The notes under the pieces were generated by a model. It was not told the origin of the DNA. It worked only from the letters and a program-made list of their open reading frames with translations, and did no database searches. The position numbers and the translations under genes are program-made. Of a stretch of DNA of 39,499 nucleotides, positions 16,543 to 35,965 are shown one piece after another. Positions within the stretch are counted from its first letter, which is position 1. Every line of letters starts with the position of its first letter. This DNA comes from Rhodocyclaceae bacterium (GTDB taxonomy: Bacteria > Pseudomonadota > Gammaproteobacteria > Burkholderiales > Rhodocyclaceae): NCBI GenBank assembly GCA_027492775.1, contig JAPUEC010000223.1, positions 1-39,499 on the forward strand, written 5' to 3'.

Positions 16543-17592
16543 ATGAATCCGCTCGACCCCATCCGCCTGACCCAGCTCTCTCACGGGGGTGGCTGTGGCT
16601 GCAAAATCGCGCCCGGCGTCCTGGAAAAAATCCTGGCACAAGGCATCGGCGGATTGGTGCCGCCGCAATTGCTCGTCGGTCGCGAGACCAGCGACGACGC
16701 GGCGGTTTATCAGATTAACGACAATCAGGCGATTGTGGCGACGACCGATTTTTTCATGCCCATCGTCGACGACCCGCGTGATTTCGGCAGGATCGCCGCC
16801 ACCAACGCGATTTCGGACATCTATGCCATGGGCGGGACGCCGCTCTTCGCTCTGGCGCTGGTCGGCATGCCGGTTGCCACCTTGCCGCTGGAGGTCATCG
16901 CCCGCATTCTCGAGGGCGGGGAGGCGGCCTGCGCCGGGGCAGGCATTCCCGTGGCCGGCGGCCATACCATCGACTCGGTCGAGCCGATTTACGGCTTGGC
17001 GGTGATCGGTATCGTCAATCCCCGGCACTTGAAGCGCAATTCCAGTGCGCGCGCCGGCGACAAGATCATTCTCGGCAAACCGCTGGGCGTCGGGATTTAT
17101 AGCGCCGCGTTGAAGAAAGATAAACTGTCGCCACCCGATTACGCGGCCATGATCGAGCTCACCACCCGCTTGAACACGCCCGGGCCGGTGCTTTCCTGCC
17201 TTTCCGGCGTGCATGCGCTCACGGACGTTACCGGCTTCGGGCTGCTCGGCCATCTATGGGAAGTGTGCAAGGGTTCGAATCTCTCGGCGGAAATCGATTT
17301 CGCCAAAATTCCTCTCTTGCCCTCCGCCTCGGCGTTGGCCGATGCGGGATTTATCACCGGCGCGTCGGCGCGCAACTGGTCGAGCTACGGCGGCAACGTC
17401 GAATTGATTGCGCCCCTCGGCGACACCGAACAGGCGCTCTTGACCGATCCGCAGACCTCCGGGGGCTTGCTCGTCGCCTGCGCCCCGGAGGGTGTGACGG
17501 AGGTTCTGTCCGGCTTCCTGCAACACGGCTTCAACTTCGCTTCGGTCATCGGCCAAATGGCCGATGGGCAACCGCACATCACGGTGCGGTAA
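16543..17592 (+). CDS. selD: Selenide, water dikinase SelD
   Basis: SelD makes selenophosphate from selenide and ATP, for selenocysteine or for 2-selenouridine in tRNA. The 349-residue protein has the catalytic motif GGGCGCK (Cys18, Cys20, Lys21), all with ordinary Cys codons, and downstream ATP- and Mg-binding signatures such as TTDFF, ATNAISDIYAMGG and GGHTI. The length matches the family. It follows the CopZ-like gene by 12 bases. No selA, selB, selU or visible Sec-containing gene lies in the window; the FDH-like gene nearby has Gly where Sec would be, so the user of selenophosphate must lie elsewhere. Confidence 0.95.
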   Translation: MNPLDPIRLTQLSHGGGCGCKIAPGVLEKILAQGIGGLVPPQLLVGRETSDDAAVYQINDNQAIVATTDFFMPIVDDPRDFGRIAATNAISDIYAMGGTPLFALALVGMPVATLPLEVIARILEGGEAACAGAGIPVAGGHTIDSVEPIYGLAVIGIVNPRHLKRNSSARAGDKIILGKPLGVGIYSAALKKDKLSPPDYAAMIELTTRLNTPGPVLSCLSGVHALTDVTGFGLLGHLWEVCKGSNLSAEIDFAKIPLLPSASALADAGFITGASARNWSSYGGNVELIAPLGDTEQALLTDPQTSGGLLVACAPEGVTEVLSGFLQHGFNFASVIGQMADGQPHITVR

Positions 17593-17831: not shown

Positions 17832-17865
17832 TTGTGAAAATTTTCACAATGTGATATATTTCACA
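17832..17865 (+). promoter_or_regulatory. Two adjacent Rex operators overlying the rex-hydrogenase promoter
   Basis: Site 1 (17832-17849) is a perfect 18-bp palindrome, TTGTGAAAATTTTCACAA, matching the Rex consensus TTGTGAA-N4-TTCACAA. Site 2 (17850-17865), TGTGATATATTTCACA, is a near-perfect Rex site and abuts it; the centres are 17 bp apart. A promoter fits directly on them: -35 TTGTGA at 17832-17837, a 17-bp spacer, and -10 TATATT at 17855-17860. Rex binding would block RNA polymerase. The rex start codon is at 17889, so autoregulation and control of the downstream hydrogenase genes are expected. Confidence 0.88.
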
Positions 17866-17888
17866 CACACGGTTACAGAGCGCGAACA

Positions 17889-19022
17889 ATGAATTTAATT
17901 CCGGAACGGACCATCGAAAGGCTTTGCGCCTATCGGCGAATCCTGTTTCTTTGGCGCCAGCAGGACAAGCAACGCTTTCATTCGCGTGAGCTTGCCGAGG
18001 CTGCCGGAATTACGTCCGCCCAAGTACGCCGTGACCTCATGTCCCTGAAAGCCATCGGCACGCCCAAGAATGGTTACTTCACCGACAACATCATCGATGA
18101 ACTCGGCCTGATCATTGAAGGCGAGACCGGGCAGCGCGTCGTCCTCATCGGCGCGGGCAATCTTGGCAACGCCATCGTGACTTACTTCGATGGCCGGCGC
18201 CCCGATCTCAATATCGTCGCCGTCTTCGACAACGACCCGGGAAAGATCGGCAAGACGGTAGCCTCCGTTCCCTGCCTGCCCGTCGACCAGCTTGGCCGCA
18301 CGGTCAAGGAAAAAGACGTGTTGCTCGGCATCGTCACCGTGCCTGGCAGCCTCGCCCAGGAAATGGCCAATCTGCTAATCGAAGCGGGCGTCAAGGCCAT
18401 CATCAATTTCACCCCGGCGAAGCTCAAGGTTCCGGCCGAGGTCTTCGTCGAAGACGTCGATATCTCCATCGCCATCGAGAAGTCCGCCTATTTCGCGCGC
18501 ACCCGCGCTCAGCAGAAGGAAGCGGGTTATGTCGCCTCCGCGACCAAGGCCGGCGAGATTAAGGCGATGCGGAAAAAAGTGTTGTGCATTGATGACGACA
18601 AGGATGTCATCGATAGTTATCGCGCCATCCTGAAGGGGGCCGATTACGACGTCGAAGTCGCATTCGACGGGGAAACCGGGGTGAAGATGGCCGGCGAAAC
18701 TAGGCCCGACCTGATCATCCTGGATGTCATGATGAAAAGCCCGACCGAAGGTTTCGCCGTGGCGAAGAAACTCCGCCAGGATGCGGCTCTCCGGTCGACG
18801 CCGATCCTGATGCTTACGGCCATCGCCAGTGAGCTGAAGTTCGGGTTCGACAAGGACAAAGACGGTTCGGCGTTGCCGGTGGATGCTTTCGTCGACAAGC
18901 CCGTGGCGCCTTTTACCCTCCTGTCGGCAATCCGCAAGCTCTTGAGGTTGCCCAAGGACCAGATCAACACGGAAGGTGGCGGGGAAGACTTTCCGTTTGC
19001 CTCCCAGATTATTACTGCGTGA
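17889..19022 (+). CDS. rex: Rex NADH-sensing repressor fused to a response-regulator receiver domain
   Basis: A 377-residue protein of two parts. Residues 1-210 are a full Rex: a winged helix with SAQVRRDL (43-50), a Rossmann NAD(H) site GAGNLGNA (88-95), and the domain-swap helix around IAIEKSAYFA. Rex normally ends near residue 210. Here a linker leads to a receiver domain (about 228-352) with acidic DDD 235-237, phospho-acceptor Asp279 in LILDVMM-like context, Thr310 and Lys337, so it appears able to be phosphorylated. Rex represses targets when bound to NAD+ and leaves DNA when NADH rises. Its own promoter has two Rex sites. The FDH-like gene begins 22 bases downstream, so rex is likely the first gene of the hydrogenase operon. 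Confidence 0.93.
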   Translation: MNLIPERTIERLCAYRRILFLWRQQDKQRFHSRELAEAAGITSAQVRRDLMSLKAIGTPKNGYFTDNIIDELGLIIEGETGQRVVLIGAGNLGNAIVTYFDGRRPDLNIVAVFDNDPGKIGKTVASVPCLPVDQLGRTVKEKDVLLGIVTVPGSLAQEMANLLIEAGVKAIINFTPAKLKVPAEVFVEDVDISIAIEKSAYFARTRAQQKEAGYVASATKAGEIKAMRKKVLCIDDDKDVIDSYRAILKGADYDVEVAFDGETGVKMAGETRPDLIILDVMMKSPTEGFAVAKKLRQDAALRSTPILMLTAIASELKFGFDKDKDGSALPVDAFVDKPVAPFTLLSAIRKLLRLPKDQINTEGGGEDFPFASQIITA

Positions 19023-19044: not shown

Positions 19045-20946
19045 ATGAACTATAAGCCGTGCGTGTGCAATCTCTGCGGGACCGGTTGCGGACAATTTCT
19101 GAAAACCGACGGTAAGAAGGTTTTTGGCGTTGCGCCCAATCAGGCTCATCCCGTCAGCAAGGGCAAGCTCTGCATTCGGGGCTGGCATATCAACGAACTG
19201 CTCAATACGAACGAGAGAATCACCACGCCTCTCATTCGCGAGAATGGCCAGTTGCGCGTCGCTTCGTACGAGGAGGCCATCTCCCTCGTCGCCAAGCGGA
19301 TGGCGGAATTCAACGGCCCTGCGGGCGAAATCGGCGTCATGGCCTCGGCCCGCTCCTCGAACGAGAATGGCTTCACCCTGGCCAAGCTGACGCGCGATGT
19401 CTTCAAGACCACCGTGCTCGGCATCAGCGCCGAAGCCGGCCATCGCAACAGTATGTCCTCGCTCAACCACGCTTTCGGCTATCCCGGCGCGGTCGGCAGC
19501 CTGACCAATATCGACAAGGCCGATTACATCCTGGTCGTCGGTACCGACATCACCCGCCAGAACCCGATCATCGGTGGAAACATCCACGCCGCCCAGCGTC
19601 GTGGCGCGCGGGTCGTGACCCTGGCCAGCTCCCGCACCCAGATCGCCAAGCTCTCGACCAAGCACTTCCAGCAAAAGCCGGGAACCAAGGGCCTGTTCAT
19701 CAACGCCCTGGCCAAGGCGCTGCACTCGGTGCGCACCATCAACCACGAGCGGCCGGGGACCATCGACCTGCTGCCCGGGTATGCCCCGTACGTCGAGGCG
19801 CTGCGCACCATTTCCTCGATCGCCCTGGAAGAGGCAAGCGGCATCCACTACGAGGACATCGAAGCCGAAGCGCGTTTCATCGACCAGGCCAAGAATGTGG
19901 TGATCCTCTTCTCGACCGGCATCTCCGGCCTCGACAAGCCGACCATCGATGCCATCACCAATCTCGCCGTGCTCTCCGACAAGATGGACAGCGAGTACTC
20001 GGCGATCATCCCGGTGGCGGGCATCAGCAACCTGCAAGGCAGCTTCGACATGGGCGTTTCGGGCGAACCGGGACACAGCGTGTTCAAGAGCCTGGCCGAG
20101 CCGAATTCCCCGCTCAAGGCCTTGTTCGTCGTCGATCACGACGACGGCATCATCCGCAACAAGGAACGCATCGCCGCCCTCGATTTCGTCGTCTATGCCA
20201 GCGCCTACAAGAACCCGTTCATGGATCTGGCGCATGTGGTGTTCCCGCTGCCCACCTTCAATGAGGGTGACGGCACCTACACGACCTCCGATCGTCGCGT
20301 GCAAGTAACGCTGAAGAATATGGACAATCCGGGCAATGCGCTCCCGGGCTGGCAACTCCATCAGCTGATCGCAGAAAAGGCCGGTCAGCGCTGGGGTTAC
20401 ACCGATGCCGCCAATGTCTTCGCCGATATCGCCAAGACCGTTCCGGGCTACGCCGATCTGAGCCATGAGCGCCTCGCCAAGGGCTTCGGTCAGCACTGGG
20501 ATCCGAAAGCGTTCGCCACCGCCGGCAAGAAGAAATTCCACGCCATCAAGATCGAATACAAGGAACCCGTCACCAGCGAGCAATTCCCGTTCGCGCTGAT
20601 GATCGGCAAGGCCCAGCACTTCTGGCACCAGAACAACCTGATGCGCAAGACGCTGATTCCGCGCCGCGAGTACGACCAGACCCTGCTGCTCTATCCGCAG
20701 GGCTATGTCGAGATTTGCCCGGAAGACGCCAAGAAGCTCAAGGTCCGCGACAAGTGGCTGGTGAATGTGTCGTCCAGCTCGGGCACGACCATGAAGATCG
20801 CCGTCAAGATCAACGACGACGTTCAGTCTGGCACCGCGTATATCCCGTATTTCATTAAAAACATGATTTCCGATTTTCTCATCAGGTATGACAACGCCTT
20901 CGCTGCTGGCGAAGAGAGCGTCATTCCTGTCCGGATTGAGGAATGA
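19045..20946 (+). CDS. Formate-dehydrogenase-like molybdopterin-oxidoreductase subunit lacking catalytic Cys/Sec
   Basis: A 633-residue member of the FdhF/NuoG superfamily. The N-terminal [4Fe-4S] ligands are CNLCGTGC (8, 11, 15) and GKLCIRG (Cys43). Ungapped comparison with remembered E. coli FdhF from the D(K/N)xD strand back to the active site puts Gly132 at the Sec/Cys position, with the next His (133) kept. The FDH stretch NPVRGQNNVQG reads IPVAGISNLQG, so the Arg is also lost, and the C-terminal pterin region looks altered. Formate oxidation is therefore unlikely; an electron-conducting role like NuoG is inferred. It is followed by the beta-subunit gene with an ATGA overlap or a 14-base gap, depending on start. 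Confidence 0.82.
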   Translation: MNYKPCVCNLCGTGCGQFLKTDGKKVFGVAPNQAHPVSKGKLCIRGWHINELLNTNERITTPLIRENGQLRVASYEEAISLVAKRMAEFNGPAGEIGVMASARSSNENGFTLAKLTRDVFKTTVLGISAEAGHRNSMSSLNHAFGYPGAVGSLTNIDKADYILVVGTDITRQNPIIGGNIHAAQRRGARVVTLASSRTQIAKLSTKHFQQKPGTKGLFINALAKALHSVRTINHERPGTIDLLPGYAPYVEALRTISSIALEEASGIHYEDIEAEARFIDQAKNVVILFSTGISGLDKPTIDAITNLAVLSDKMDSEYSAIIPVAGISNLQGSFDMGVSGEPGHSVFKSLAEPNSPLKALFVVDHDDGIIRNKERIAALDFVVYASAYKNPFMDLAHVVFPLPTFNEGDGTYTTSDRRVQVTLKNMDNPGNALPGWQLHQLIAEKAGQRWGYTDAANVFADIAKTVPGYADLSHERLAKGFGQHWDPKAFATAGKKKFHAIKIEYKEPVTSEQFPFALMIGKAQHFWHQNNLMRKTLIPRREYDQTLLLYPQGYVEICPEDAKKLKVRDKWLVNVSSSSGTTMKIAVKINDDVQSGTAYIPYFIKNMISDFLIRYDNAFAAGEESVIPVRIEE

Positions 20947-20960
20947 ACGGAGTGGCTTCA

Positions 20961-22019
20961 ATGTACATACTGACTTCTGACGAAATCAAGCAGCTGGCCG
21001 ACGAGTTCAAGGGATCGTACGACGTCTACGGGCCGCAGGTTCATGGTCAAACCGGACAGGTGTTCTTCGACATCGTTTCCGACACCAAGGACATCGACCT
21101 CGACGCTGCCATCCCCTCCATGCCGGTGAAGGAAATCCTCTTCCCGCAAATGGAGACCATCCTCAAATACCGCTACGACGCCGCTGCCCAAAGCGTCACC
21201 ATGGACAAGCAGTATTTCGAGAAGCCCAAGGTGCTGTTCGGCTTGCGTCCCTGTGACCTCGCCGGCATCCAGGTGCTCGACCGCTTTTTCATCGGCCAGG
21301 AATTTGTCGATGACGTCTATCTGACGCATCGGCAAAAATGCCTGCTCATCACCAACACCTGCACCCGACCCTGGGACCAGTGCTTCTGCGTTTGCACGCA
21401 CACCGGGCCGGCGGCGGAAGAGGGATTCGACCTCGATCTGACCAAGATCCAAGGCGGTTACCTGGTGCAGGTGGGCAGCGCCAAGGGCCAGGCCGTCGCC
21501 GACGCGCACAACTGGACGAAGGCCGACGATTCCGCCAAGGCCAAGAAGGATGCGGTGGTCGACAAGTCGATCTCGCTCTTCCCGGAAATGGCCAAGGACA
21601 ACAAGGCCTGGATCTCCCGCGCCATGAACCGCATGACCACCGGCTTCGCCAAGCAGGATGTTTGGGAGTACATCGGCAACCAGTGCTTCGAGTGCGGCGC
21701 CTGCTCTTTCGTCTGCCCGACCTGCTCCTGCTTCAATATCGAGGACGCCAAGGGCGGCTGCGACGGCGAATGCGACCGCCTGCGGACGCGCGACTCCTGC
21801 TCCTTCGAGGGCTACACCCGGATGGCGGGTGACCACAACCCGCGTGCTCCGGTGGAAGACCGCCGCAACAAGCGCTTCTTCTGCAAGCTCTCGTACTCTC
21901 AATCCAAGAAATACATGCGCCCCGGCTGTATCGGTTGCGGTCGGTGCCAGTGGGTGTGCCCAGGAGACATCGGCCTGCCGAATGTCGTCCAGTACATCCG
22001 TAGAGAAACCAGCGAATAG
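20961..22019 (+). CDS. Sulfhydrogenase beta-subunit-like Fe-S protein (HydB/AsrA family)
   Basis: A 352-residue cytoplasmic electron-transfer protein resembling the beta subunit of archaeal sulfhydrogenases and AsrA of anaerobic sulfite reductase. The family motif FGLRPCDLAGIQ is present, followed by Cys-rich CTRPWDQCFC and two C-terminal ferredoxin-type clusters: CFECGACSFVCPTC and CIGCGRCQWVCP. It would connect the flavin subunit (next gene) to other Fe-S centres of the complex. An ATG at 20943 overlaps the previous stop, but the ATG at 20961 has GGAG 8 bases upstream and gives MYILTSDE, so it is preferred. Confidence 0.87.
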   Translation: MYILTSDEIKQLADEFKGSYDVYGPQVHGQTGQVFFDIVSDTKDIDLDAAIPSMPVKEILFPQMETILKYRYDAAAQSVTMDKQYFEKPKVLFGLRPCDLAGIQVLDRFFIGQEFVDDVYLTHRQKCLLITNTCTRPWDQCFCVCTHTGPAAEEGFDLDLTKIQGGYLVQVGSAKGQAVADAHNWTKADDSAKAKKDAVVDKSISLFPEMAKDNKAWISRAMNRMTTGFAKQDVWEYIGNQCFECGACSFVCPTCSCFNIEDAKGGCDGECDRLRTRDSCSFEGYTRMAGDHNPRAPVEDRRNKRFFCKLSYSQSKKYMRPGCIGCGRCQWVCPGDIGLPNVVQYIRRETSE

Positions 22020-22026
22020 GTGAACC

Positions 22027-22899
22027 ATGTACCAGTCCAAACATACGCACGAGGCGTGTAAGAAAGACGGCGTTTGCCCGATCGTCACTTTCCCCGAGGT
22101 CGTCAATATCGACGAAATCAAGGATGAGGCGCCCGAGGTCAAGACATTCTACATGTCCTTTCTCGATAAGGAAGTCGAGAAGGAATTCAAGCTGAAATCC
22201 GGCCAGTTCATCATGTGCACGGTCTTCGGCGCGGGCGAGTTCGCGGTTTCCCTGCCACCTTCCCCGGAAAACGACCGTTTCCACATCACCGTTCGCGCCG
22301 TCGGCAAGGTTACCAATGCGCTGCATGCATTGAAGCCGGGCGACACGCTGGGTGTCCGCGGTCCTTTCGGCAACGGCTTTCCCTTCGAGGACATCAAGGG
22401 CAAGAACATCATCTACGTCGCCGGCGGTATCGGCCTGATTCCGTTGCGCAGCTCGATCATCCACGCGCTGCAGCACCGCGATGAGTTCGGCCGCATTATC
22501 CTGCTCTACGGTTCCCGCTCCGCCAAGGACCTGCTGTATCAGGAAGACATCAAGGAATGGAAGAAGACCGACGGCTTCGAGACCTTCATCACCATCGACC
22601 GCAACGAACCGGGTTGGGACGGTGAAGTCGGCTACGTCAATACGCTGATCGAAAAGGCGAACGTGCCGGTGGATAACACCGTGGCCTTCGTCTGCGGCCC
22701 CCCGATCATGTTCAACAGCGTCATCGACGACTTCCTGAAGCGCGGCATGAGCGAAGACAACATCATCTCCACGCTCGAACGCCAGATGAAGTGCGGTATC
22801 GGCAAGTGCCAGCACTGCGCCATCGGCCGCACCCTGGTCTGTACCGACGGCCCGGTCTACACCTACCGTCAGATCAAGACGCTGGGCGAAGTCATATGA
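22027..22899 (+). CDS. Sulfhydrogenase gamma-subunit-like FAD/NAD(P)-binding reductase (HydG/AsrB family)
   Basis: A 290-residue ferredoxin-reductase-type flavoprotein. Residues about 35-120 form the FAD domain (GQFIMC...FAVSLPPSP), followed by an NAD(P) domain with VAGGIGLIPLRS and FVCGPP. A C-terminal [2Fe-2S] site has CGIGKCQHC plus a later Cys in TLVCTDGP. It should be the entry or exit point for NAD(P)H electrons; NADH versus NADPH preference cannot be told. It lies 7 bases after the beta subunit, with an AGGTGA ribosome site, and its stop overlaps the protease ATG. Confidence 0.9.
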   Translation: MYQSKHTHEACKKDGVCPIVTFPEVVNIDEIKDEAPEVKTFYMSFLDKEVEKEFKLKSGQFIMCTVFGAGEFAVSLPPSPENDRFHITVRAVGKVTNALHALKPGDTLGVRGPFGNGFPFEDIKGKNIIYVAGGIGLIPLRSSIIHALQHRDEFGRIILLYGSRSAKDLLYQEDIKEWKKTDGFETFITIDRNEPGWDGEVGYVNTLIEKANVPVDNTVAFVCGPPIMFNSVIDDFLKRGMSEDNIISTLERQMKCGIGKCQHCAIGRTLVCTDGPVYTYRQIKTLGEVI

Positions 22900-23384
22900 T
22901 TCCGTTCGAACACGGCCTGCGCGAGATTTTGTCCCAGCCGACGTGCATCGTCGGCGTGGGCAACCTCATGCGCAACGACGATGCCGTCGGCGTGATGATC
23001 GCCGACCGCCTGGGGCAGGATCTTTCCGCCCTCAATGGCGCCAGCGTCGTCCTCGCCGAGGATGTCATCGAGAATCACGTGTTCCGCATCGCCGAGGGCG
23101 ATGCCAAGAACGTGCTGATGATCGATGCCGTCTCCGCGGATGCGGAAGTCGGGTCGGTGGTCCTGGGCAAGCTCGAGGATCTGGAACGAGTCGCCAACAA
23201 CGGCTTCTCGACCCACAAGCTGGCGCTCTCGACGGCCGGCAGCATCCTCAAGCACTACGGTAAGGACGTCTACCTGCTTGGCATCGTGGCCGCCAATACG
23301 GATTACGGCACTGAAGTTTCACAAGAAATTCTGGATAGCGCTGAAACGGTCATCGACCTCGTTCGTGCGAACAGCAAGGAGTAA
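22896..23384 (+). CDS. Hydrogenase maturation protease (HycI/HybD family)
   Basis: A 162-residue nickel-dependent-maturation endopeptidase. The N-terminal GVGNLMRNDDAVG, the second acidic site in LMIDAVSAD, and the His in STHKLALS are the expected family residues. The start overlaps the gamma-subunit stop (ATGA). Its likely substrate is the group 4 large subunit encoded at 25285, which has a C-terminal tail after DPCFSCTDR. A separate protease, HoxW, serves the Hox enzyme. Confidence 0.88.
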   Translation: MIPFEHGLREILSQPTCIVGVGNLMRNDDAVGVMIADRLGQDLSALNGASVVLAEDVIENHVFRIAEGDAKNVLMIDAVSADAEVGSVVLGKLEDLERVANNGFSTHKLALSTAGSILKHYGKDVYLLGIVAANTDYGTEVSQEILDSAETVIDLVRANSKE

Positions 23385-23390
23385 TTAAAG

Positions 23391-25259
23391 ATGGATTTCA
23401 ATATCTACAGCGGTTTGTTGGCGGGCATCCTGGTGCTCCTCGCCTCAGCGGTCGTGACCCCGCTGTTCGCCGGCCAGCGCAAGTTCGCGGGCGGGCTGAA
23501 CTTCGTGTTCTGCCTGGTCGCGGCGCTGATCTTCGCCGGCATCGCCGTCAAGGTGCTGACCGGTGCTGCCGAAGCCGGGACCTTCGTCCTCAAGCTCGGC
23601 GGTTTCGACATCCCCTTCCTCATCGACGGCTTCTCGGCGCTCTTCCTGGCGCTTATCGCCTTGATGTCGGCGCTTACCGCGTTCTACTGCATCGGCTACA
23701 TGGAGATGGATCATTATCGCCACTACAGCCTGCGCGGCTTCATGGTGGCCTACCCCATCTTCATCGCCGGCATGGTCGGTATCGTCACGGTCGATGACCT
23801 GACCACCGGCTTCACCATCGCCTGGCAAATGATGACGCTCGCTTCCTTCTTCCTGATCCGCTTCGACCACCAGGACAAGGACATCACGCGCAGCGCCAAC
23901 AAGTACCTGATTCTGATGGAACTGGCCTGGGTCGTCATCCTCATCGCCGCTCTCATGATTCCGGGCAGCCACGCCGGCTCCACCCTGCATCACCTGACCG
24001 AAGGCCTCGGCCAAGCGGGCGCGCCGCGCGGCATGGTCTACGCCCTGCTGCTGTTCGGCTTCGGCATGAAGGCCGGCATGTTCCCCCTCGGCCAGCTCTG
24101 GTTGCCGGACGCGCACTCCTCCGCACCGTCGCCGATCAGCGCGCTGCTCTCCGGCGTGATGATCAAGACCGGCGTCTATGGCATCGTCCGCACGCTGTTC
24201 TGGATGGTCCCGGCCGATTTCGCCATCACCGATGGCCGCAACCTCGGCCTAGTGCTGGCTTGCTTCGGCGTGGTCACGCTGTTCATCGGCACGATCCAGG
24301 CGCTGAAGCAGCATGACGCCAAACGTCTGCATGCCTACCACTCAATCGGCCAGATGGGCTACATCCTGCTCGGCATCGGCATCGCCCAGTACTTCCTGCT
24401 CTCCAGCAGCCCGGTATTGCAAGGCATCGCCGTGCTCGCCCTCATCGGCGGCATCTACCACACTTTCAACCACGCGCTCTTCAAGGGGCTGCTCTTCCTC
24501 TGCACCGGCAGCGTCCAGTACGCCACCGGCACCAAGGATCTGGACAAGCTGGGCGGTCTCCTGCGCATCATGCCCCTGACAGCGCTGACGGCAGCGGTGG
24601 CTTCGGCCTCGATCGCCGGCATCCCCGCCTGCAGCGGTTTCATGAGCAAGTGGGCGGTGATCTCCAGCAGCCTGCTGGGTGGCAAGGAGGCCGGCATCAT
24701 CGTCCTCTTCGGCGTCATCGCCCTGATGACCAGCGCCATCACGCTCGCCTCCTACGTCAAGTTCTTCGGCATGGCCTTCACTTCCAGCGGTGTCGAGTGG
24801 AACGAGAAGAAGGGCCTCAAGGAAGTCGGCGGCGTCATGCTCTTCCCGAAGATCATCCTGGCGATCATCTGCCTGGTGCAAGGTTTCTTCCCCTGGCTCT
24901 TCGTGACGCTCTTCAGCAAGGTCTTCGCCATGTCGGAAGGTTCGCTCATCCAGGCGGCTTTCACCGGACCGGCGGCCGATGCCACACTGGCCAAGTCCTA
25001 CGCCGGCGTGACGTTCAACCTGGCTTCGGGTGCGCCGGTGGCGTTCATCATGCCGCTCGTGCTGCTTGCCATGCTGGCCGTAGCCTTCCTGTTCGCCGCC
25101 TGGCTGCGCCGCGCTGGTGGCGCCGAGCAGCGTACCGCGCCGGTATGGCTGTGCGGCTACCAGACCCTGAACAACGACAACCGCTACCTGAGTAGCCACA
25201 TTTACGCCGCCTTCAAGAAGTTCATGAAGTGGACCGGCGGCAACGTTCACGGGGCCTGA
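23391..25259 (+). CDS. Group 4 hydrogenase antiporter-like membrane subunit (HycC/HyfB/NuoL-like)
   Basis: A 622-residue integral membrane protein with about 15-16 hydrophobic segments, related to complex I NuoL and Mrp antiporter subunits; it would couple electron flow to ion movement. A helix-7 lysine in FGMKAGMFP, a helix-8 lysine in GVMIKTG, and the conserved AYHSIGQ histidine are present. The usual helix-5 Glu in a (F/A)WE context is Gln146 here (AWQMMTLAS, codon CAA at 23826-23828). The C-terminal WLCGYQ stretch resembles HycC (WVCGYD). It is the only antiporter-like subunit in the operon. The AAGGAG ribosome site is strong. Confidence 0.9.
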   Translation: MDFNIYSGLLAGILVLLASAVVTPLFAGQRKFAGGLNFVFCLVAALIFAGIAVKVLTGAAEAGTFVLKLGGFDIPFLIDGFSALFLALIALMSALTAFYCIGYMEMDHYRHYSLRGFMVAYPIFIAGMVGIVTVDDLTTGFTIAWQMMTLASFFLIRFDHQDKDITRSANKYLILMELAWVVILIAALMIPGSHAGSTLHHLTEGLGQAGAPRGMVYALLLFGFGMKAGMFPLGQLWLPDAHSSAPSPISALLSGVMIKTGVYGIVRTLFWMVPADFAITDGRNLGLVLACFGVVTLFIGTIQALKQHDAKRLHAYHSIGQMGYILLGIGIAQYFLLSSSPVLQGIAVLALIGGIYHTFNHALFKGLLFLCTGSVQYATGTKDLDKLGGLLRIMPLTALTAAVASASIAGIPACSGFMSKWAVISSSLLGGKEAGIIVLFGVIALMTSAITLASYVKFFGMAFTSSGVEWNEKKGLKEVGGVMLFPKIILAIICLVQGFFPWLFVTLFSKVFAMSEGSLIQAAFTGPAADATLAKSYAGVTFNLASGAPVAFIMPLVLLAMLAVAFLFAAWLRRAGGAEQRTAPVWLCGYQTLNNDNRYLSSHIYAAFKKFMKWTGGNVHGA

Positions 25260-25284: not shown

Positions 25285-26946
25285 ATGAGAAAAGAACTTG
25301 AAGCGAAACTGAAGGCGGACCTTCAAGACGGCATTGTCTGTGTCGAGAAGACGGACGAGCGCACCATCTCGGTCGAGATGAAGCGCGAGTCAGTCAAGGC
25401 GGCAGCCAATATCGTCAAAGAGGCCGGTGGCCGTTATCTGTGCAGTATCGGCTACGACAACATCGAGCGCGATCAGACCCTCGGTCTGGTGCACGCGTTC
25501 GCCTTCGACAAGGAAAGCCGGTTCGTCAATCTGCGGACGAGCGCACCGGTCTCCGACCCGGTGGTCGAGTCGATCACTCCTATCATTCCGTCGGCCGGCT
25601 GGTCCGAGCGCGAATACATGGACCTCCTGGGGTTCAAGTTCGCCAACCATCCGAAGCCGAAGAAGCTGATCGTCGCCGACGATTGGCCAACCGACGTCTT
25701 CCCGATGCGCAAGGAAGTGCCGCACGATTTCATGCCGCAAGGTGCGGAAGACGTTGCTTACCAGCTGGACGAGGCCCCCCCGGGCACCAAGATCGTCCCG
25801 GTCGGCCCCTTCCATCCGTGTCTGCACGAGCCTGAACACTTCGCGGTGTATGTCGACGGTGAAACGATCAAAGGCTGCGATTACCGCGGCTTCATGACCC
25901 ACCGCGGCATCGAGAAGCTGTGCCAGACCCAGGTCAGCTACAACGAAATCCCGTTCATCGCCGAACGGATCTGCGGCATCTGCGGCTCGGTGCATGCCAC
26001 CGCCTACGCCCAGTGCGTCGAATCCGCCGCCGGCATCCAGATCCCGCGCCGCGCTGAGTACATCCGCACGGTCATGCTGGAAATCGAACGTATCCACTCG
26101 CATCTGCTGTGGCTCGGCGTTGCCGGCCACCTGATCGGCTTCGACACCGTGTTCATGCAAGCCTGGCGTGTCCGCGAACAGCTGATGTGGCTGTGCGAGC
26201 GCATGACCGGCAACCGCAAGACCTACGGCATGGTGCTGGTCGGCGGTGTTCGTCGTGACATCACCCCGGAGGTCGCCGACGATATCCGCGCCGTGATCAA
26301 GAAGATCGAGGAAGAGTTGATCGTCATTCACCGCGCGATCGAGAAGGACACCTCCATCCACAAGCGGACCAAGGGTGTCGGCAAGATCACCAAGCAGGAA
26401 GCGATCGACTGGAGCCTGGTCGGCCCCGTCGCCCGCGCCCGTGGCGTCGATATCGACGTTCGCCGTGACATGCCTTATGCCGCCTACGATGAAATGAAGT
26501 TCGAAGTGCCGGTGATGGATAGCTGCGACGTCTGGGCGACCCTGGTGATCCGCGTCGTCGAGACCTTCGAGGCGATCAAGATCATCCGCCAGGCCCTGGA
26601 CAAGATGCCCGGCGGCGAATACTTCGTCGAGTTCAAGGACAGGGTGCCGGCGCTACGCCATGCCATCTCCACCGTCGAAGCCCCGCGTGGCGAATCGGTG
26701 CATTACGTCATCACCGGCGAGGAAAACCGTCCGGAACGCTGGCGTGTGCGTGCCCCGACCTACCCGAATCTTCAGGGTGTGCCGGCCATGCTGCTGAACG
26801 ATCAGTTCGCCGACTTCCCCATCATCGTCGGCAGTATCGACCCGTGCTTCTCCTGTACGGACCGTGTCGCCGTCATCGATGTGAATTCGGGCAAGTCCAG
26901 TTCCCTCACCAAGGCCGAGCTGGAACGCCTGTCGCGGAAGAACTAG
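25285..26946 (+). CDS. Group 4 [NiFe] hydrogenase large subunit (HycE-like) with NuoC-like N-terminus
   Basis: A 553-residue fusion typical of HycE/HyfG. Residues about 1-165 form a NuoC-like domain (SEREYMDLLGFKFANHP), and the rest is the NuoD-like catalytic subunit. Both nickel motifs are intact: RICGICGSVH (Cys230, Cys233) and DPCFSCTDR (Cys521, Cys524), so this is a genuine hydrogenase and not a complex I relative. A 26-residue tail beginning VAVIDV follows the Arg, as in HycE before HycI cleavage. The gene lies between the membrane subunits and encodes the H2-making or H2-oxidising site facing the cytoplasm. Confidence 0.94.
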   Translation: MRKELEAKLKADLQDGIVCVEKTDERTISVEMKRESVKAAANIVKEAGGRYLCSIGYDNIERDQTLGLVHAFAFDKESRFVNLRTSAPVSDPVVESITPIIPSAGWSEREYMDLLGFKFANHPKPKKLIVADDWPTDVFPMRKEVPHDFMPQGAEDVAYQLDEAPPGTKIVPVGPFHPCLHEPEHFAVYVDGETIKGCDYRGFMTHRGIEKLCQTQVSYNEIPFIAERICGICGSVHATAYAQCVESAAGIQIPRRAEYIRTVMLEIERIHSHLLWLGVAGHLIGFDTVFMQAWRVREQLMWLCERMTGNRKTYGMVLVGGVRRDITPEVADDIRAVIKKIEEELIVIHRAIEKDTSIHKRTKGVGKITKQEAIDWSLVGPVARARGVDIDVRRDMPYAAYDEMKFEVPVMDSCDVWATLVIRVVETFEAIKIIRQALDKMPGGEYFVEFKDRVPALRHAISTVEAPRGESVHYVITGEENRPERWRVRAPTYPNLQGVPAMLLNDQFADFPIIVGSIDPCFSCTDRVAVIDVNSGKSSSLTKAELERLSRKN

Positions 26947-26960
26947 GAAAGAGTGCAACT

Positions 26961-27884
26961 ATGAACAACATTCTCGGAAACAACGGCGGCTACCTGATGG
27001 TTTTCGTCAATCTCGTGCTGTTCCTGGCGCTGGCGCCGTTCTTCGACGGCATCATCCGTCGGGTGACGGCCCGCGTGCAGAGCCGGCAGGGTCCGGTGCT
27101 GGTCCAGTCTTACTTCGATCTACTGAAGCTTCTCGGTAAGGAGAACATCGACGCCACCGGCATGCTGCCTTTCCGTCTCGCGCCACTGGTCGCCTTCGGC
27201 TCCATGCTCTGCGTCATCGCCGTTCTGCCGGTCGCCGGCATGGCGACGGCACTGACGCCTTACGCCGATACCATCTCGCTGGTTTATCTGCTGACCCTGG
27301 GCGGCGTGGCGGTTCTGCTCGGCGCCTTTGCCAGCAAGAACATCTACGCCCTCATCGGTGCCAGCCGCGAAATGACGACCATGATCATGGTCGAGCCGAT
27401 CCTTTTCATGGTGCTCATGCTTGGCGTCATGAAGACCGGCAGCCTTGATCTCAATGCCGTCATCTATGGCACGCCGAGCATGAACTACGGCATTCCCGGC
27501 ATCGTCATGGTGATCGTCTCCCTCTTCGCCTTGCAGGCGTTCGTTGCCCGCCAGCCGTTCGACATCGCCGAAGCGGAGCAGGAAGTGTTGGGTGGCCCCT
27601 TCATCGAGTACAGCGGCCCGAACTACGCGCTCTTCAAGTACTACCTGATGCTGAAGCAGATGTTCTACGCCTACCTGCCGATTGCCATGTTTGTGCCCCT
27701 GGCGCGCACCGGCAGCGTGGTGGTGGATGTGGTCATCCAGATGGCGCTGACCGCCGTCGTGTTCGTGCTCATCGGCATCCTGTCCTCGACGCACCCGCGC
27801 TTCCGGATTGACCAGGCGCTGCGCTACTTCGCCGGCCTCTTCCTGATTTCGCTCTGCGCGATCGCTGGCGCCCTGTTCGGCTAG
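26961..27884 (+). CDS. Group 4 hydrogenase membrane subunit (HycD/HyfC/NuoH-like)
   Basis: A 307-residue protein with about eight membrane segments, the anchor that joins the catalytic arm to the membrane domain. Conserved NuoH-type features are seen: RVQSRQGP near the N-terminus, SREMTTMI in a loop, and PFDIAEAEQEVLGGPFIEYSG with its acidic cluster near the quinone-like channel. The reading frame is open farther upstream inside the large-subunit gene, but the ATG at 26961 (MNNILGNN) sits 14 bases after that stop and is the sensible start. Confidence 0.92.
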   Translation: MNNILGNNGGYLMVFVNLVLFLALAPFFDGIIRRVTARVQSRQGPVLVQSYFDLLKLLGKENIDATGMLPFRLAPLVAFGSMLCVIAVLPVAGMATALTPYADTISLVYLLTLGGVAVLLGAFASKNIYALIGASREMTTMIMVEPILFMVLMLGVMKTGSLDLNAVIYGTPSMNYGIPGIVMVIVSLFALQAFVARQPFDIAEAEQEVLGGPFIEYSGPNYALFKYYLMLKQMFYAYLPIAMFVPLARTGSVVVDVVIQMALTAVVFVLIGILSSTHPRFRIDQALRYFAGLFLISLCAIAGALFG

Positions 27885-27907: not shown

Positions 27908-28444
27908 ATGTGGCTTACTAGCAAAATCAAGCAGATCCTGATGGTCATGAAGCCAGGGGTCGTCACGCTCGACTACCCGAACGTGCAACCGCCGCCGCCG
28001 CCCAACTTCCGCGGCGCGCCGGTGTGGGATCACCACAAGTGCATTGGCTGCGGCGGTTGTTCCGACCACTGCGTTTCGCGCTGCATCCTGACCCGCGACG
28101 TCTGCCAGGAAGTGCGCGTCATGTTGTACGACGGCTCCCGCTGCACCTACTGCGGCCGCTGTGCCGACGTCTGCCCGGAAGACGCCATCACCATGAGCAC
28201 CGAGTATCGGCTCGCCTGCGCCGACGCCAACGACGTCACCACGCGCATGGAACTGTTCATGCTGACCTGCCAGCGCTGCGGTCGTTGCTACGAAATGGAG
28301 AACACCAACGTTCTCGACCGTATCGACCTGAAGGGCTTCCGTTACGACAGCCTGGAGACCCGCGCGATGGTCCGCACGACCACCGAGACTTTGTCGCTGG
28401 AAACGCTGGCCGCAACCGAAAACTACCAGCGGCCCAGCAAATAG
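27908..28444 (+). CDS. Group 4 hydrogenase ferredoxin-like subunit (HycF/HyfH/NuoI-like)
   Basis: A 178-residue protein with two [4Fe-4S] motifs, CIGCGGCSDHC followed by Cys, and CTYCGRCADVCP. A further Cys triplet, CQRCGRC near residue 120, resembles the extra Cys motif seen in HycF-type subunits but not in NuoI. It would wire incoming electrons to the small subunit. It starts 23 bases after the NuoH-like gene, with GGAAACGGAG upstream, and ends 9 bases before the NuoB-like gene. The proline-rich QPPPPPNF stretch near residue 31 probably packs against a neighbouring subunit. Confidence 0.9.
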   Translation: MWLTSKIKQILMVMKPGVVTLDYPNVQPPPPPNFRGAPVWDHHKCIGCGGCSDHCVSRCILTRDVCQEVRVMLYDGSRCTYCGRCADVCPEDAITMSTEYRLACADANDVTTRMELFMLTCQRCGRCYEMENTNVLDRIDLKGFRYDSLETRAMVRTTTETLSLETLAATENYQRPSK

Positions 28445-28453
28445 GAGTGCAGC

Positions 28454-28981
28454 ATGCTTAAGAACCTATGCAAGAAGATGTTCACCAAGTCGATCTGGGT
28501 CTACCACTGCAACACCGGTGCCTGTAACGGCTGCGACATCGAAATTCTCAATATCCTGACGCCGTTCTACGACGTCGAGCGTTTCGGCATCAAGCTCGTC
28601 GCCTCGCCGCGCCATGCGGATGCGATGCTGATCTCCGGCGCCGTGACTCGTCCGACCCTGCCACTGGTGAAGCGCGCCTACGAGGCCATTCCGTCACCCA
28701 AGCTGGTGTTCGGTATCGGCTCTTGCGCGACCGGCGGCGGCGCCTGGTTCGACACCTACAACGTGACGGGCGGCGTCAGCAAGGCGGTTCCGGTCAATTA
28801 CTACATTCCCGGCTGCCCGCCGCGCCCCGAGGCCATTCTGTACGGCGTCGCCCTGGCCCTGGGCCTGGTCGACAAGAAGGTCGCACCGATCGAACTCAAG
28901 CAGATGGAGTTCCCGATCGACCAGTACGAGCGCAACGAGGCTTGGGAAAAGCGTAACGTCATCTATGAACTGGTGAAGTAA
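28454..28981 (+). CDS. Group 4 hydrogenase small subunit (HycG/HyfI/NuoB-like)
   Basis: A 175-residue small subunit with the ligands of the cluster next to the NiFe site: CNTGACNGCDIE, GSCATGGG and PGCPPRPEA. It matches the compact HycG/HyfI form. It is the last structural gene of the complex; GGAG lies a few bases upstream of the ATG. A response-regulator gene begins 29 bases after its stop, likely in the same transcript. Confidence 0.93.
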   Translation: MLKNLCKKMFTKSIWVYHCNTGACNGCDIEILNILTPFYDVERFGIKLVASPRHADAMLISGAVTRPTLPLVKRAYEAIPSPKLVFGIGSCATGGGAWFDTYNVTGGVSKAVPVNYYIPGCPPRPEAILYGVALALGLVDKKVAPIELKQMEFPIDQYERNEAWEKRNVIYELVK

Positions 28982-29010: not shown

Positions 29011-29406
29011 ATGAAAAAGATTTTGCTCGTTGATGACGACAAGGATTTGTGCCAAAACCTGGAAACGGTCCTCAAGTCGCATGGTTACGAAGTCGCGGTC
29101 GCGTATTCCGCCGTCGAGGGCTTGCAACAGGCCCTCGCCATCAAGCCTGACGCCATCGTTCTCGATGTGTTGATGGAGACGGACACGGCCGGCTTCGAAA
29201 TGCTCTACCAGTTGCGTAGCGCGGACAAATCGTCCCGCTATGCCGCTATTTGCAATACTCCGGTCATTCTGTTGACGGCAATCAACCAGATCACTCACTT
29301 CCGCTTCTCCCTGAGTGATAAGGACAGCTATCTGCCCAAGAACAACGGCATGCTGACCAAGCCGGTTCAAATCGACGATCTGCTGAGCAGGCTGAGCGAG
29401 TTGTAG
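29011..29406 (+). CDS. Stand-alone response-regulator receiver protein
   Basis: A 131-residue single receiver domain with no output domain. It has DDD at 8-10, phospho-acceptor Asp52 in VLDVLM, Thr in LLTAI and Lys in LTKPV, so it should be phosphorylatable. It shares unusual features with the receiver of the Rex fusion: a LDV(M/L)M-x5-GF segment and an extended loop after LTAI reading F-x-F-S/D-x-x-DKD before the KPV motif. This suggests both descend from the same receiver type and may share a kinase. The GAGGAG ribosome site is good; a terminator follows 60 bases later. Confidence 0.9.
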   Translation: MKKILLVDDDKDLCQNLETVLKSHGYEVAVAYSAVEGLQQALAIKPDAIVLDVLMETDTAGFEMLYQLRSADKSSRYAAICNTPVILLTAINQITHFRFSLSDKDSYLPKNNGMLTKPVQIDDLLSRLSEL

Positions 29407-29501: not shown

Positions 29502-29643
29502 ATTGTCCGGAACTGCGGTCGTCCAAGACCGCCATCGAATCTCACCGGCCCTTGAATGCTTCAAGCCGGCCCCAAATCGGGGCACAATGACGGCATAGGC
29601 AGTCGTGCACCGGCGCACGTCGGCAATCGAAGGGAAGAGGCGC

Positions 29644-30348
29644 TTGAACAAGGAACAGGAAGCAAAGGTACTGGATCTCATGGCCATCGTGGCACACGAG
29701 CTGATGAGCCCGGTCGCCACCATCCATACCACCGTCGACACGCTGCGCGGCGGCTATTTCGGCGAGTTTTCCCCGGAGCAGCGCAAAGGCCTCGAGACCA
29801 TCCTGCGCAATTGCCAGTATCTCGAAGACATCATCTGCTGCTACAGCGACCTGGTGAAGATGGAACTCGATAAGGTGGCGTTCAAGGAAGGGCCGGTTGA
29901 TCTCATCAAAGAGGTGGTCGAGGTCATCGTCAATCGCCCCGAGTATCAAGGCAATTTGAAGGAAATGCCCATCGTGACCGTCTATTCCGCCATTCCATCA
30001 GTCCTGGGCGATGCGGATGCGTTGAAGATTGCGGTCAACAATCTGGTCAACAACGCCGTCAAATATGGGAATCATGGCAGTCCGATCCGGGTCGAAGTCT
30101 GCCGCGAAGGCGATTCCGCGGTATTGGCCATTCGCAATGAAGGACCGGGCATCGCCGCGACGGATATTCAAGACCGCCTTTTCAAGCGATTCGAACGCTT
30201 GAAGCAAAAAGGCACCGAAGGCGTCAAAGGGTCGGGGCTCGGGCTCTATATCTGCAGGCAAATCGTCGAAAAGCACGGAGGCAGGATAGAAGCGCGATCC
30301 GATGCCGAGAGTTTCGTGGAATTCCGCATCTCTTTGAAGTTTGCCTGA
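29644..30348 (+). CDS. Soluble sensor-domain-less histidine kinase
   Basis: A 234-residue kinase made only of a dimerisation/phosphoacceptor domain (His18 in VAHELMSP) and an HATPase domain with NNLVNNAVKYG, the G1-type NEGPGIA and the G2-type GSGLGLYIC. No membrane segment, PAS, GAF or other input domain is visible, so any signal must come through a partner protein. TTG 29644 is preferred because AGGGAAGAGG lies just upstream; GTG 29605 is a longer alternative with no clear ribosome site. The position next to the receiver gene and the Rex-receiver operon suggests these are its targets. Confidence 0.88.
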   Translation: MNKEQEAKVLDLMAIVAHELMSPVATIHTTVDTLRGGYFGEFSPEQRKGLETILRNCQYLEDIICCYSDLVKMELDKVAFKEGPVDLIKEVVEVIVNRPEYQGNLKEMPIVTVYSAIPSVLGDADALKIAVNNLVNNAVKYGNHGSPIRVEVCREGDSAVLAIRNEGPGIAATDIQDRLFKRFERLKQKGTEGVKGSGLGLYICRQIVEKHGGRIEARSDAESFVEFRISLKFA

Positions 30349-35290: not shown

Positions 35291-35965
35291 ATGGCCGACG
35301 GACAGACGATTCCAGGGTGTGGCTTGAGCCTTGTCGTGTTACGCAACCTCCCCCTTTTCTCTGGGCTGGAGCAAGCGGAGCTCGAAAAGCTGGGGCAAGT
35401 TGCGGTTCGGCGCCGCGCCACCCGCGGCGAGTTCATCGTGCGCGCGGGCGAAGCCACGGACTCGCTCTTCATCCTGGTCAGCGGCAACGCCAAAGTCACC
35501 AATTGCGACGAGGAAGGGCGTGAAATCATCTTGGCCATCCTCGGCCCCGGCGAATTTTTTGGCGAAATGGGCCTGATCGACGGCAGCCCGCGCTCCGCAA
35601 GCGTCGTGGCGCAGCAGACCTGCGAATTGCTGGTGATGACCCGCGCCGATTTCCATCGCTGCATGCAGAACAATTTCCAGGTGGCGTTAAAGCTGATGCG
35701 TATCCTGGTGCAGCGTCTCCGCGAGGCCGACCGCAAGATCGAAAGCCTGGCGCTGCTCGATGTTTATGGTCGCGTTGCCCGATTGTTGCTGGAGATGTCG
35801 GTGGTGGAAAATGGCCGGCGGGTGGTGACGCGCAAGGTTTCGAAGCAGGATATGGCGCGCATGATCGGCGCTTCGCGCGAGATGGTCAGCAAGGTCATGC
35901 GCGATCTGGAAAATAGCGGTTATGTCACCTACGAGGGCGATTTGATGGTCATCGTCGAGGCGTAG
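35291..35965 (+). CDS. Crp/Fnr family regulator, CRP-like
   Basis: A 224-residue regulator with an N-terminal cyclic-nucleotide-binding domain and a C-terminal winged helix. The binding-pocket motif [18 protein letters not shown] resembles the cAMP site of CRP (Glu, Arg-Ser), and the helix [20 protein letters not shown] resembles CRP/Clp rather than FNR. No N-terminal Fe-S cysteine cluster is present, so it is not a second FNR. Whether it binds cAMP or another nucleotide is open. It starts divergently from trxB and lies 2 bases before ftsK, so it may be co-transcribed with ftsK and lolA. Confidence 0.88.

Follow-up and report, generated by a model that had tools for sequence, protein, structure and literature searches.

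Does the locus described here encode a repressor in which redox sensing and two-component signalling meet in one polypeptide? Within the window (the whole stretch of 39,499 nucleotides of Rhodocyclaceae DNA that was analysed), a single uninterrupted frame at 17889–19022 on the forward strand, starting with ATG and 377 amino acids long, had been interpreted in a first-pass annotation as a Rex repressor fused to a complete receiver domain. To our knowledge, Rex is known as a repressor answering NADH/NAD+ alone. A conserved receiver fusion would mean that evolution has added a phosphorelay input to Rex, here in a setting, the control of an NADH-linked hydrogenase, whose physiological logic is clear.

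Domains and conservation of the fusion protein

Profile searches bear out the two-domain architecture. Indeed, the NCBIfam model NF003995 covers residues 3–209 (E = 1.5e-57; 194.6 bits versus a cut-off of 126), the Pfam domains Put_DNA-bind_N (4.7e-14) and CoA_binding (4.6e-17) are detected in the same part, and the top PDB sequence matches of the fusion are Rex throughout, with E-values down to 2.5e-32. This Rex part (17895–18515, forward strand) combines a winged helix-turn-helix with an NAD(H)-binding fold, in which the GxGxxG motif reads GAGNLG (residues 88–93). Arg17, Tyr99 and Asp191 correspond to Arg16, Tyr98 and Asp188 of T-Rex and are invariant in an alignment of six homologues. In T-Rex, Asp188, located at the start of the swap helix, pairs with Arg16′ or Tyr98′ according to the nucleotide, and the last Rex helix drives dimerization (PMC6125430).

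The receiver domain occupies residues 227–352 (18567–18944, forward strand), of which residues 231–348 match Pfam Response_reg PF00072 (2.8e-16; 60.1 bits versus 30.2). The acidic pair Asp235/Asp236, the phospho-acceptor Asp279 (codon at 18723–18725), Thr310 and Lys337 are all found where the annotation had placed them; Asp236, Asp279, Thr310 and Lys337 are invariant across the six homologues, and position 235 is either Asp or Glu. As judged from the alignment, the Rex switch residues and the receiver catalytic residues are intact and conserved, which supports the possible merger of NADH/NAD+ and phosphorelay inputs that had been suggested at the outset. The AlphaFold2 model, a monomer built from a 34-row alignment, has a mean pLDDT of 90.6; its two domains are well ordered, values below 50 being restricted to residues 220–225. 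The domain-swap helix, the last of the Rex part, is predicted to be extended, spanning residues 192–220 (18462–18548, forward strand) with the receiver at its end. When this model was searched with Foldseek, Rex crystal structures matched the first part, and receivers ranked lower in the list.

Full-length homologues were retrieved from two of the three other genomes of the genus (G002 and G003), an Oligoflexia metagenome-assembled genome (MAG), an Acidobacteria MAG and a second Acidobacteriota genome (G493). These five proteins are 55–62% identical to that of the window, the Rex part (59–67%) and the receiver (59–69%) being far better kept than the linker (0–14%). Such a distribution bears directly on whether an error of sequencing or assembly could have joined two genes, a risk raised by the annotation itself. 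The assembly is indeed a draft of 261 contigs, and Rex and receiver genes are adjacent in other genomes; however, the same in-frame fusion occurs in six genomes belonging to three phyla, with matched lengths and equally conserved domains, so that a joining error is refuted and its probability negligible. It is also highly improbable that translation starting internally at Met226 yields a separate receiver as well, a free phosphate acceptor beside the full-length protein. An ATG does lie in the region of 18567–18569, preceded by a weak AAGG, and the Oligoflexia homologue likewise has a Met near its receiver start, but the matching Met is missing in G002 and G003 and the ribosome site is weak. 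This candidate was rejected, the start codon not being conserved.

Phylogenies of both domains point to a common origin. The six fusions form one clade in the 74-row Rex tree (100/99) and one clade in the receiver tree (97/94), from which a single ancient fusion that spread, mostly with its operon, may be deduced. Since the second, ordinary Rex of G429 sits far from the fused Rex in the tree, the latter is distinct from the resident Acidobacteriota Rex. The rarity of Rex in the host group, remarked upon in the annotation, is confirmed: Rex-family matches occur in 3 of 369 genomes of the class (two above the cut-off), and the only strong match in the order is the window's own genome (1/399), three more being barely above the cut-off. 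With Rex nearly missing from class and order, horizontal spread of the fusion gene, mostly together with its operon, is the simplest reading of these sequences. Rex was not found in G001, the fourth genome of the genus. A Rex-family match was obtained in 118 of 297 Acidobacteriota genomes, and two, upon inspection of long open frames, contain the fusion; in the phylum of the Oligoflexia MAG, a fusion-length Rex frame above the cut-off exists in that genome only. Among the matches listed for the phyla of G432 (247 genomes) and G430 (82 genomes), none spans both domains, and full-length Rex–receiver proteins were not found in a plasmid collection of 72,556 records.

Operators and the hydrogenase operon

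The strongest functional evidence was absent from the first-pass annotation: it consists of Rex operators at the gene's own promoter, a hydrogenase operon, and unfused Rex, kinase and receiver neighbours in other genomes. Upstream of the fusion gene lie two predicted operators, TTGTGAAAATTTTCACAA at 17832–17849, an exact match to the published Rex consensus TTGTGAANNNNTTCACAA (PMC6391272), and ATGTGATATATTTCACAC at 17849–17866, which overlaps the former by one base and thereby sets a 17-bp period. The perfect operator was not matched in any of 2000 shuffled versions of the upstream sequence. Rex-type sites lie at most about 90 bases from the start codon in all six fusion genes, and TGTGA half-sites are exactly 17 bp apart at all six promoters (shuffles: at most 1/2000). 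A putative promoter (17832–17860, forward strand; −35 TTGTGA, 17-bp spacer, −10 TATATT) would lie under both operators, and a TTGTG[A/T]–17 bp–TA..[A/T]T arrangement, readable as a promoter under the sites, recurs in five of the six. Directly upstream of this promoter region is a selenophosphate synthase-like gene, selD (16543–17592).

A search for the exact pattern TGTGA-N6-TCACA located it at only two places in the 3.17-Mb genome of the window, both at the fusion gene, and did not find it in the genome of G001, the genus member without Rex. In G002, tandem sites precede hoxF, which belongs to a soluble NAD-linked hydrogenase and is divergent to the fusion gene, and another perfect site adjoins the gene of an Fe-alcohol dehydrogenase, which would be a sensible Rex target. 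Taken together, the genome-wide counts and the G002 sites argue for a small, mainly local regulon. In G003, two Rex-like sites 46 bp apart (L158, 1501 and 1547) were seen upstream of a gene of the YeeE/YedE-type sulphur-transport family.

The fusion gene and the hydrogenase genes that follow lie on one strand, with short gaps or overlaps. They encode a formate-dehydrogenase/NuoG-like subunit (19045–20946), a 4Fe-4S subunit of the hydrogenase electron-input module (20943–22019), a diaphorase-like flavin/NAD(P)-binding subunit (22027–22899) that is 76–91% identical across fusion loci, a HycI-type hydrogenase maturation protease (22896–23384, with a putative start codon), a NuoL/antiporter-like membrane subunit (23391–25259), the large subunit of a group-4 [NiFe] hydrogenase as a 30 kDa + 49 kDa fusion (25285–26946), a NuoH-like membrane subunit (26844–27884, its real start probably further in), a HyfH-like ferredoxin subunit (27908–28444) and a HyfI-like small subunit (28454–28981). 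Because the large subunit keeps both nickel-ligand CxxC motifs (RICGIC at 228 and DPCFSC at 519), the enzyme should be an active hydrogenase. Formate hydrogenlyase was ruled out as the identity of the operon, a Gly being aligned where the active-site Sec/Cys of the formate-dehydrogenase-like subunit belongs; an electron-carrying role is consequently more likely for this subunit, which is probably a relic within an NAD(P)H-linked group-4 hydrogenase. Compared with the homologues in L098, the active-site position, Gly in the window, reads Thr in G493 as judged by eye, and the next His is kept. The combination of an NAD(P) subunit with an electron-carrying one suggests that the operon encodes an NAD(P)H-linked, ion-pumping hydrogenase of the membrane type. 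A second set of hydrogenase genes, similar to hoxU, hoxY and hoxH of soluble NAD-linked [NiFe] hydrogenases, is located at the left contig edge (57–2802).

Two signalling genes follow on the same strand, namely a free receiver, REC2 (29011–29406), with its D/D/T/K residues intact, and a histidine kinase without recognised sensor domain, which carries the HisKA H-box HELMSP and a HATPase domain and is the candidate partner of the fusion. This kinase had been pointed out before, at 29644; the gene is present, and its frame runs from 29605 to 30348. The order from fusion to hydrogenase operon is shared by G002, G428 and G493, and by G429 up to the end of the fetched stretch. The end of the operon in G002 is occupied by a Cache-type kinase gene together with a receiver-kinase gene; in G003 such a pair directly follows the fusion gene, and the hydrogenase operon is not adjacent. 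These Cache-sensor kinase/receiver-kinase pairs linked to the fusion gene (L055:5453–7393, L055:7263–8456 and L056:1549–4564) differ from the situation in the window, which retains only the kinase without recognised sensor.

The sister clade of the fused Rex in the Rex tree (99/81, with an open fork inside) comprises Rex proteins of ordinary length from the phylum Calditrichota, from G977, from the Bacteroidetes MAG G439 and from the Acidobacteriota genome G670. Several of their rex genes lie a few genes from those of a bifurcating-type HydABC [FeFe] hydrogenase, and the same loci hold a receiver, a receiver-kinase and a kinase fused to an [FeFe]-hydrogenase-like domain; Pfam domain assignments at the unfused loci cover L145, L110 and L111. 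A receiver of the fusion's type adjoins rex in divergent orientation at L136–L138, and at L004 (a planctomycete) and L111 (Calditrichaeota G430) genes for receiver, kinase and Rex directly precede those of the same 4Fe-4S and flavin subunits. In the Acidobacteriota genome G561 (L105:1234–3422), rex and a free receiver gene lie one after the other on the same strand, in the order seen in the fusion. Two separate genes, L145:2462–4477 and L111:6402–8408, encode [FeFe]-hydrogenase-like and FeS domains fused to a histidine kinase, beside a receiver and near rex; such a protein may be the kinase through which H2 or redox state is sensed at these loci. As Rex and two-component genes are repeatedly neighbours in hydrogen metabolism, the fusion would weld two of them, and the unfused sets of Calditrichota, Planctomycetota, Bacteroidota and others suggest that the same link may be used without fusion.

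A dual-input model and its alternatives

We consider it probable that the fusion protein represses hydrogen metabolism locally and takes two inputs, NADH and a two-component signal. At low NADH/NAD+, dimers bound to both overlapping operators would block the access of RNA polymerase; accumulating NADH would close the dimer and make it release the DNA, thereby switching on a hydrogenase able to dispose of reductant as H2. A linked histidine kinase would pass phosphate to Asp279 of the receiver carried on the lengthened swap helix, and the phosphorylated receiver may then change the operator affinity or the cooperativity of neighbouring dimers, the signal being transmitted through that helix. 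A single polypeptide would in this way integrate redox state and kinase signal. Attached to the distal end of the swap helix, with the switch residue Asp191 near the other end, the receiver is well placed to modulate a switch motion like that of T-Rex. We slightly favour stronger repression upon phosphorylation, the receivers then linking neighbouring dimers, because tandem operators with a 17-bp period go together with the fusions and the unfused relatives mostly have a single site. Several points count against the dual-input reading: no recognised sensor domain is present in the kinase of the window, whose partner may instead be REC2; G003 has its hydrogenase operon away from the fusion; the structural model is a monomer with low confidence at residues 220–225, so that any placement of the receivers in the dimer is tentative; and the TTGTGA-N6-TCACAA palindrome resembles CRP sites.

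This last resemblance raises the question of whether the palindromes at 17832–17866 belong to another regulator of the CRP/FNR type, the Rex part having its targets elsewhere. The CRP consensus is also TGTGA-N6-TCACA, and a Crp/Fnr family protein is encoded at 35291–35965 of the window. Yet the genome counts given above, with both occurrences at the fusion gene and none in the Rex-less genus member, make it doubtful that the sites belong to a CRP regulon; moreover, the first site agrees with the Rex consensus in its outer TT...AA, and the same tandem sites accompany fusion promoters in three phyla, which leaves this explanation very unlikely. A less remote alternative, though still an unlikely one, is that NADH is the sole control and the receiver a phosphorylation-independent structural or docking module, for example one by which dimers touch each other or the hydrogenase complex. 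Some receivers do work without phosphorylation, and tandem operators would fit a role in dimer–dimer contacts. Such a module is nevertheless less compatible with the retention of Asp/Glu235, Asp236, Asp279, Thr310 and Lys337 over three phyla at a domain identity of 59–69%, and with the kinase genes linked to the fusion in the window, G002 and G003.

The dual-input reading can be extended, tentatively and at somewhat less than even confidence, to a class of Rex–receiver proteins whose swap helix is the common target of NADH and phosphorylation and whose receivers, through their contacts, bring neighbouring dimers together on tandem operators of 17-bp period, forming a two-signal gate for NADH-linked hydrogenases. 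A single event would have given rise to the class, starting from Rex, receiver and kinase encoded separately, and its transfer between phyla would mostly have included the hydrogenase operon. As the operators are defined, with seemingly one tandem pair in the genome of the window, a single protein and a single DNA fragment would suffice for a direct test of the idea.

Comparison with known systems

Searches of the open-licence literature yielded no paper on Rex fused to a receiver; thus, the architecture, which the annotation had allowed might already be well described, appears to be undescribed, even if automatic database entries may exist. In its winged helix-turn-helix, its NAD(H) domain with GxGxxG and its Arg/Tyr/Asp triad, the protein resembles the Rex family as represented in T. 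aquaticus, B. subtilis and T. maritima, and the predicted operator consensus, autoregulation pattern and hydrogenase targets would also be shared. Unlike known Rex proteins, it has a C-terminal swap helix predicted to be longer and followed by a full receiver, tandem overlapping operators with a 17-bp period and an apparently local rather than global regulon. Rex of Caldicellulosiruptor bescii represses the [NiFe] Ech and [FeFe] Hyd hydrogenases as well as itself through TTGTGAANNNNTTCACAA (PMC6391272); the consensus is as here and hydrogenase control as predicted here, whereas no receiver is reported in that protein. With two-component response regulators (OmpR/PhoB-type and others), the fusion has in common an intact D/D/T/K receiver and histidine kinase genes nearby, but its receiver is C-terminal and its output domain, Rex, senses a metabolite in its own right instead of being a simple DNA-binding domain. 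Parallels are also offered by the unfused sets (G977, G1235 and G1183 of the Calditrichota, and G439), where Rex, kinase and receiver lie near an NADH-linked hydrogenase and a Rex-type operator precedes several rex genes, as at the fusion loci; these sets differ in their separate Rex and receiver, their mainly bifurcating [FeFe] hydrogenase and their mostly single operators.
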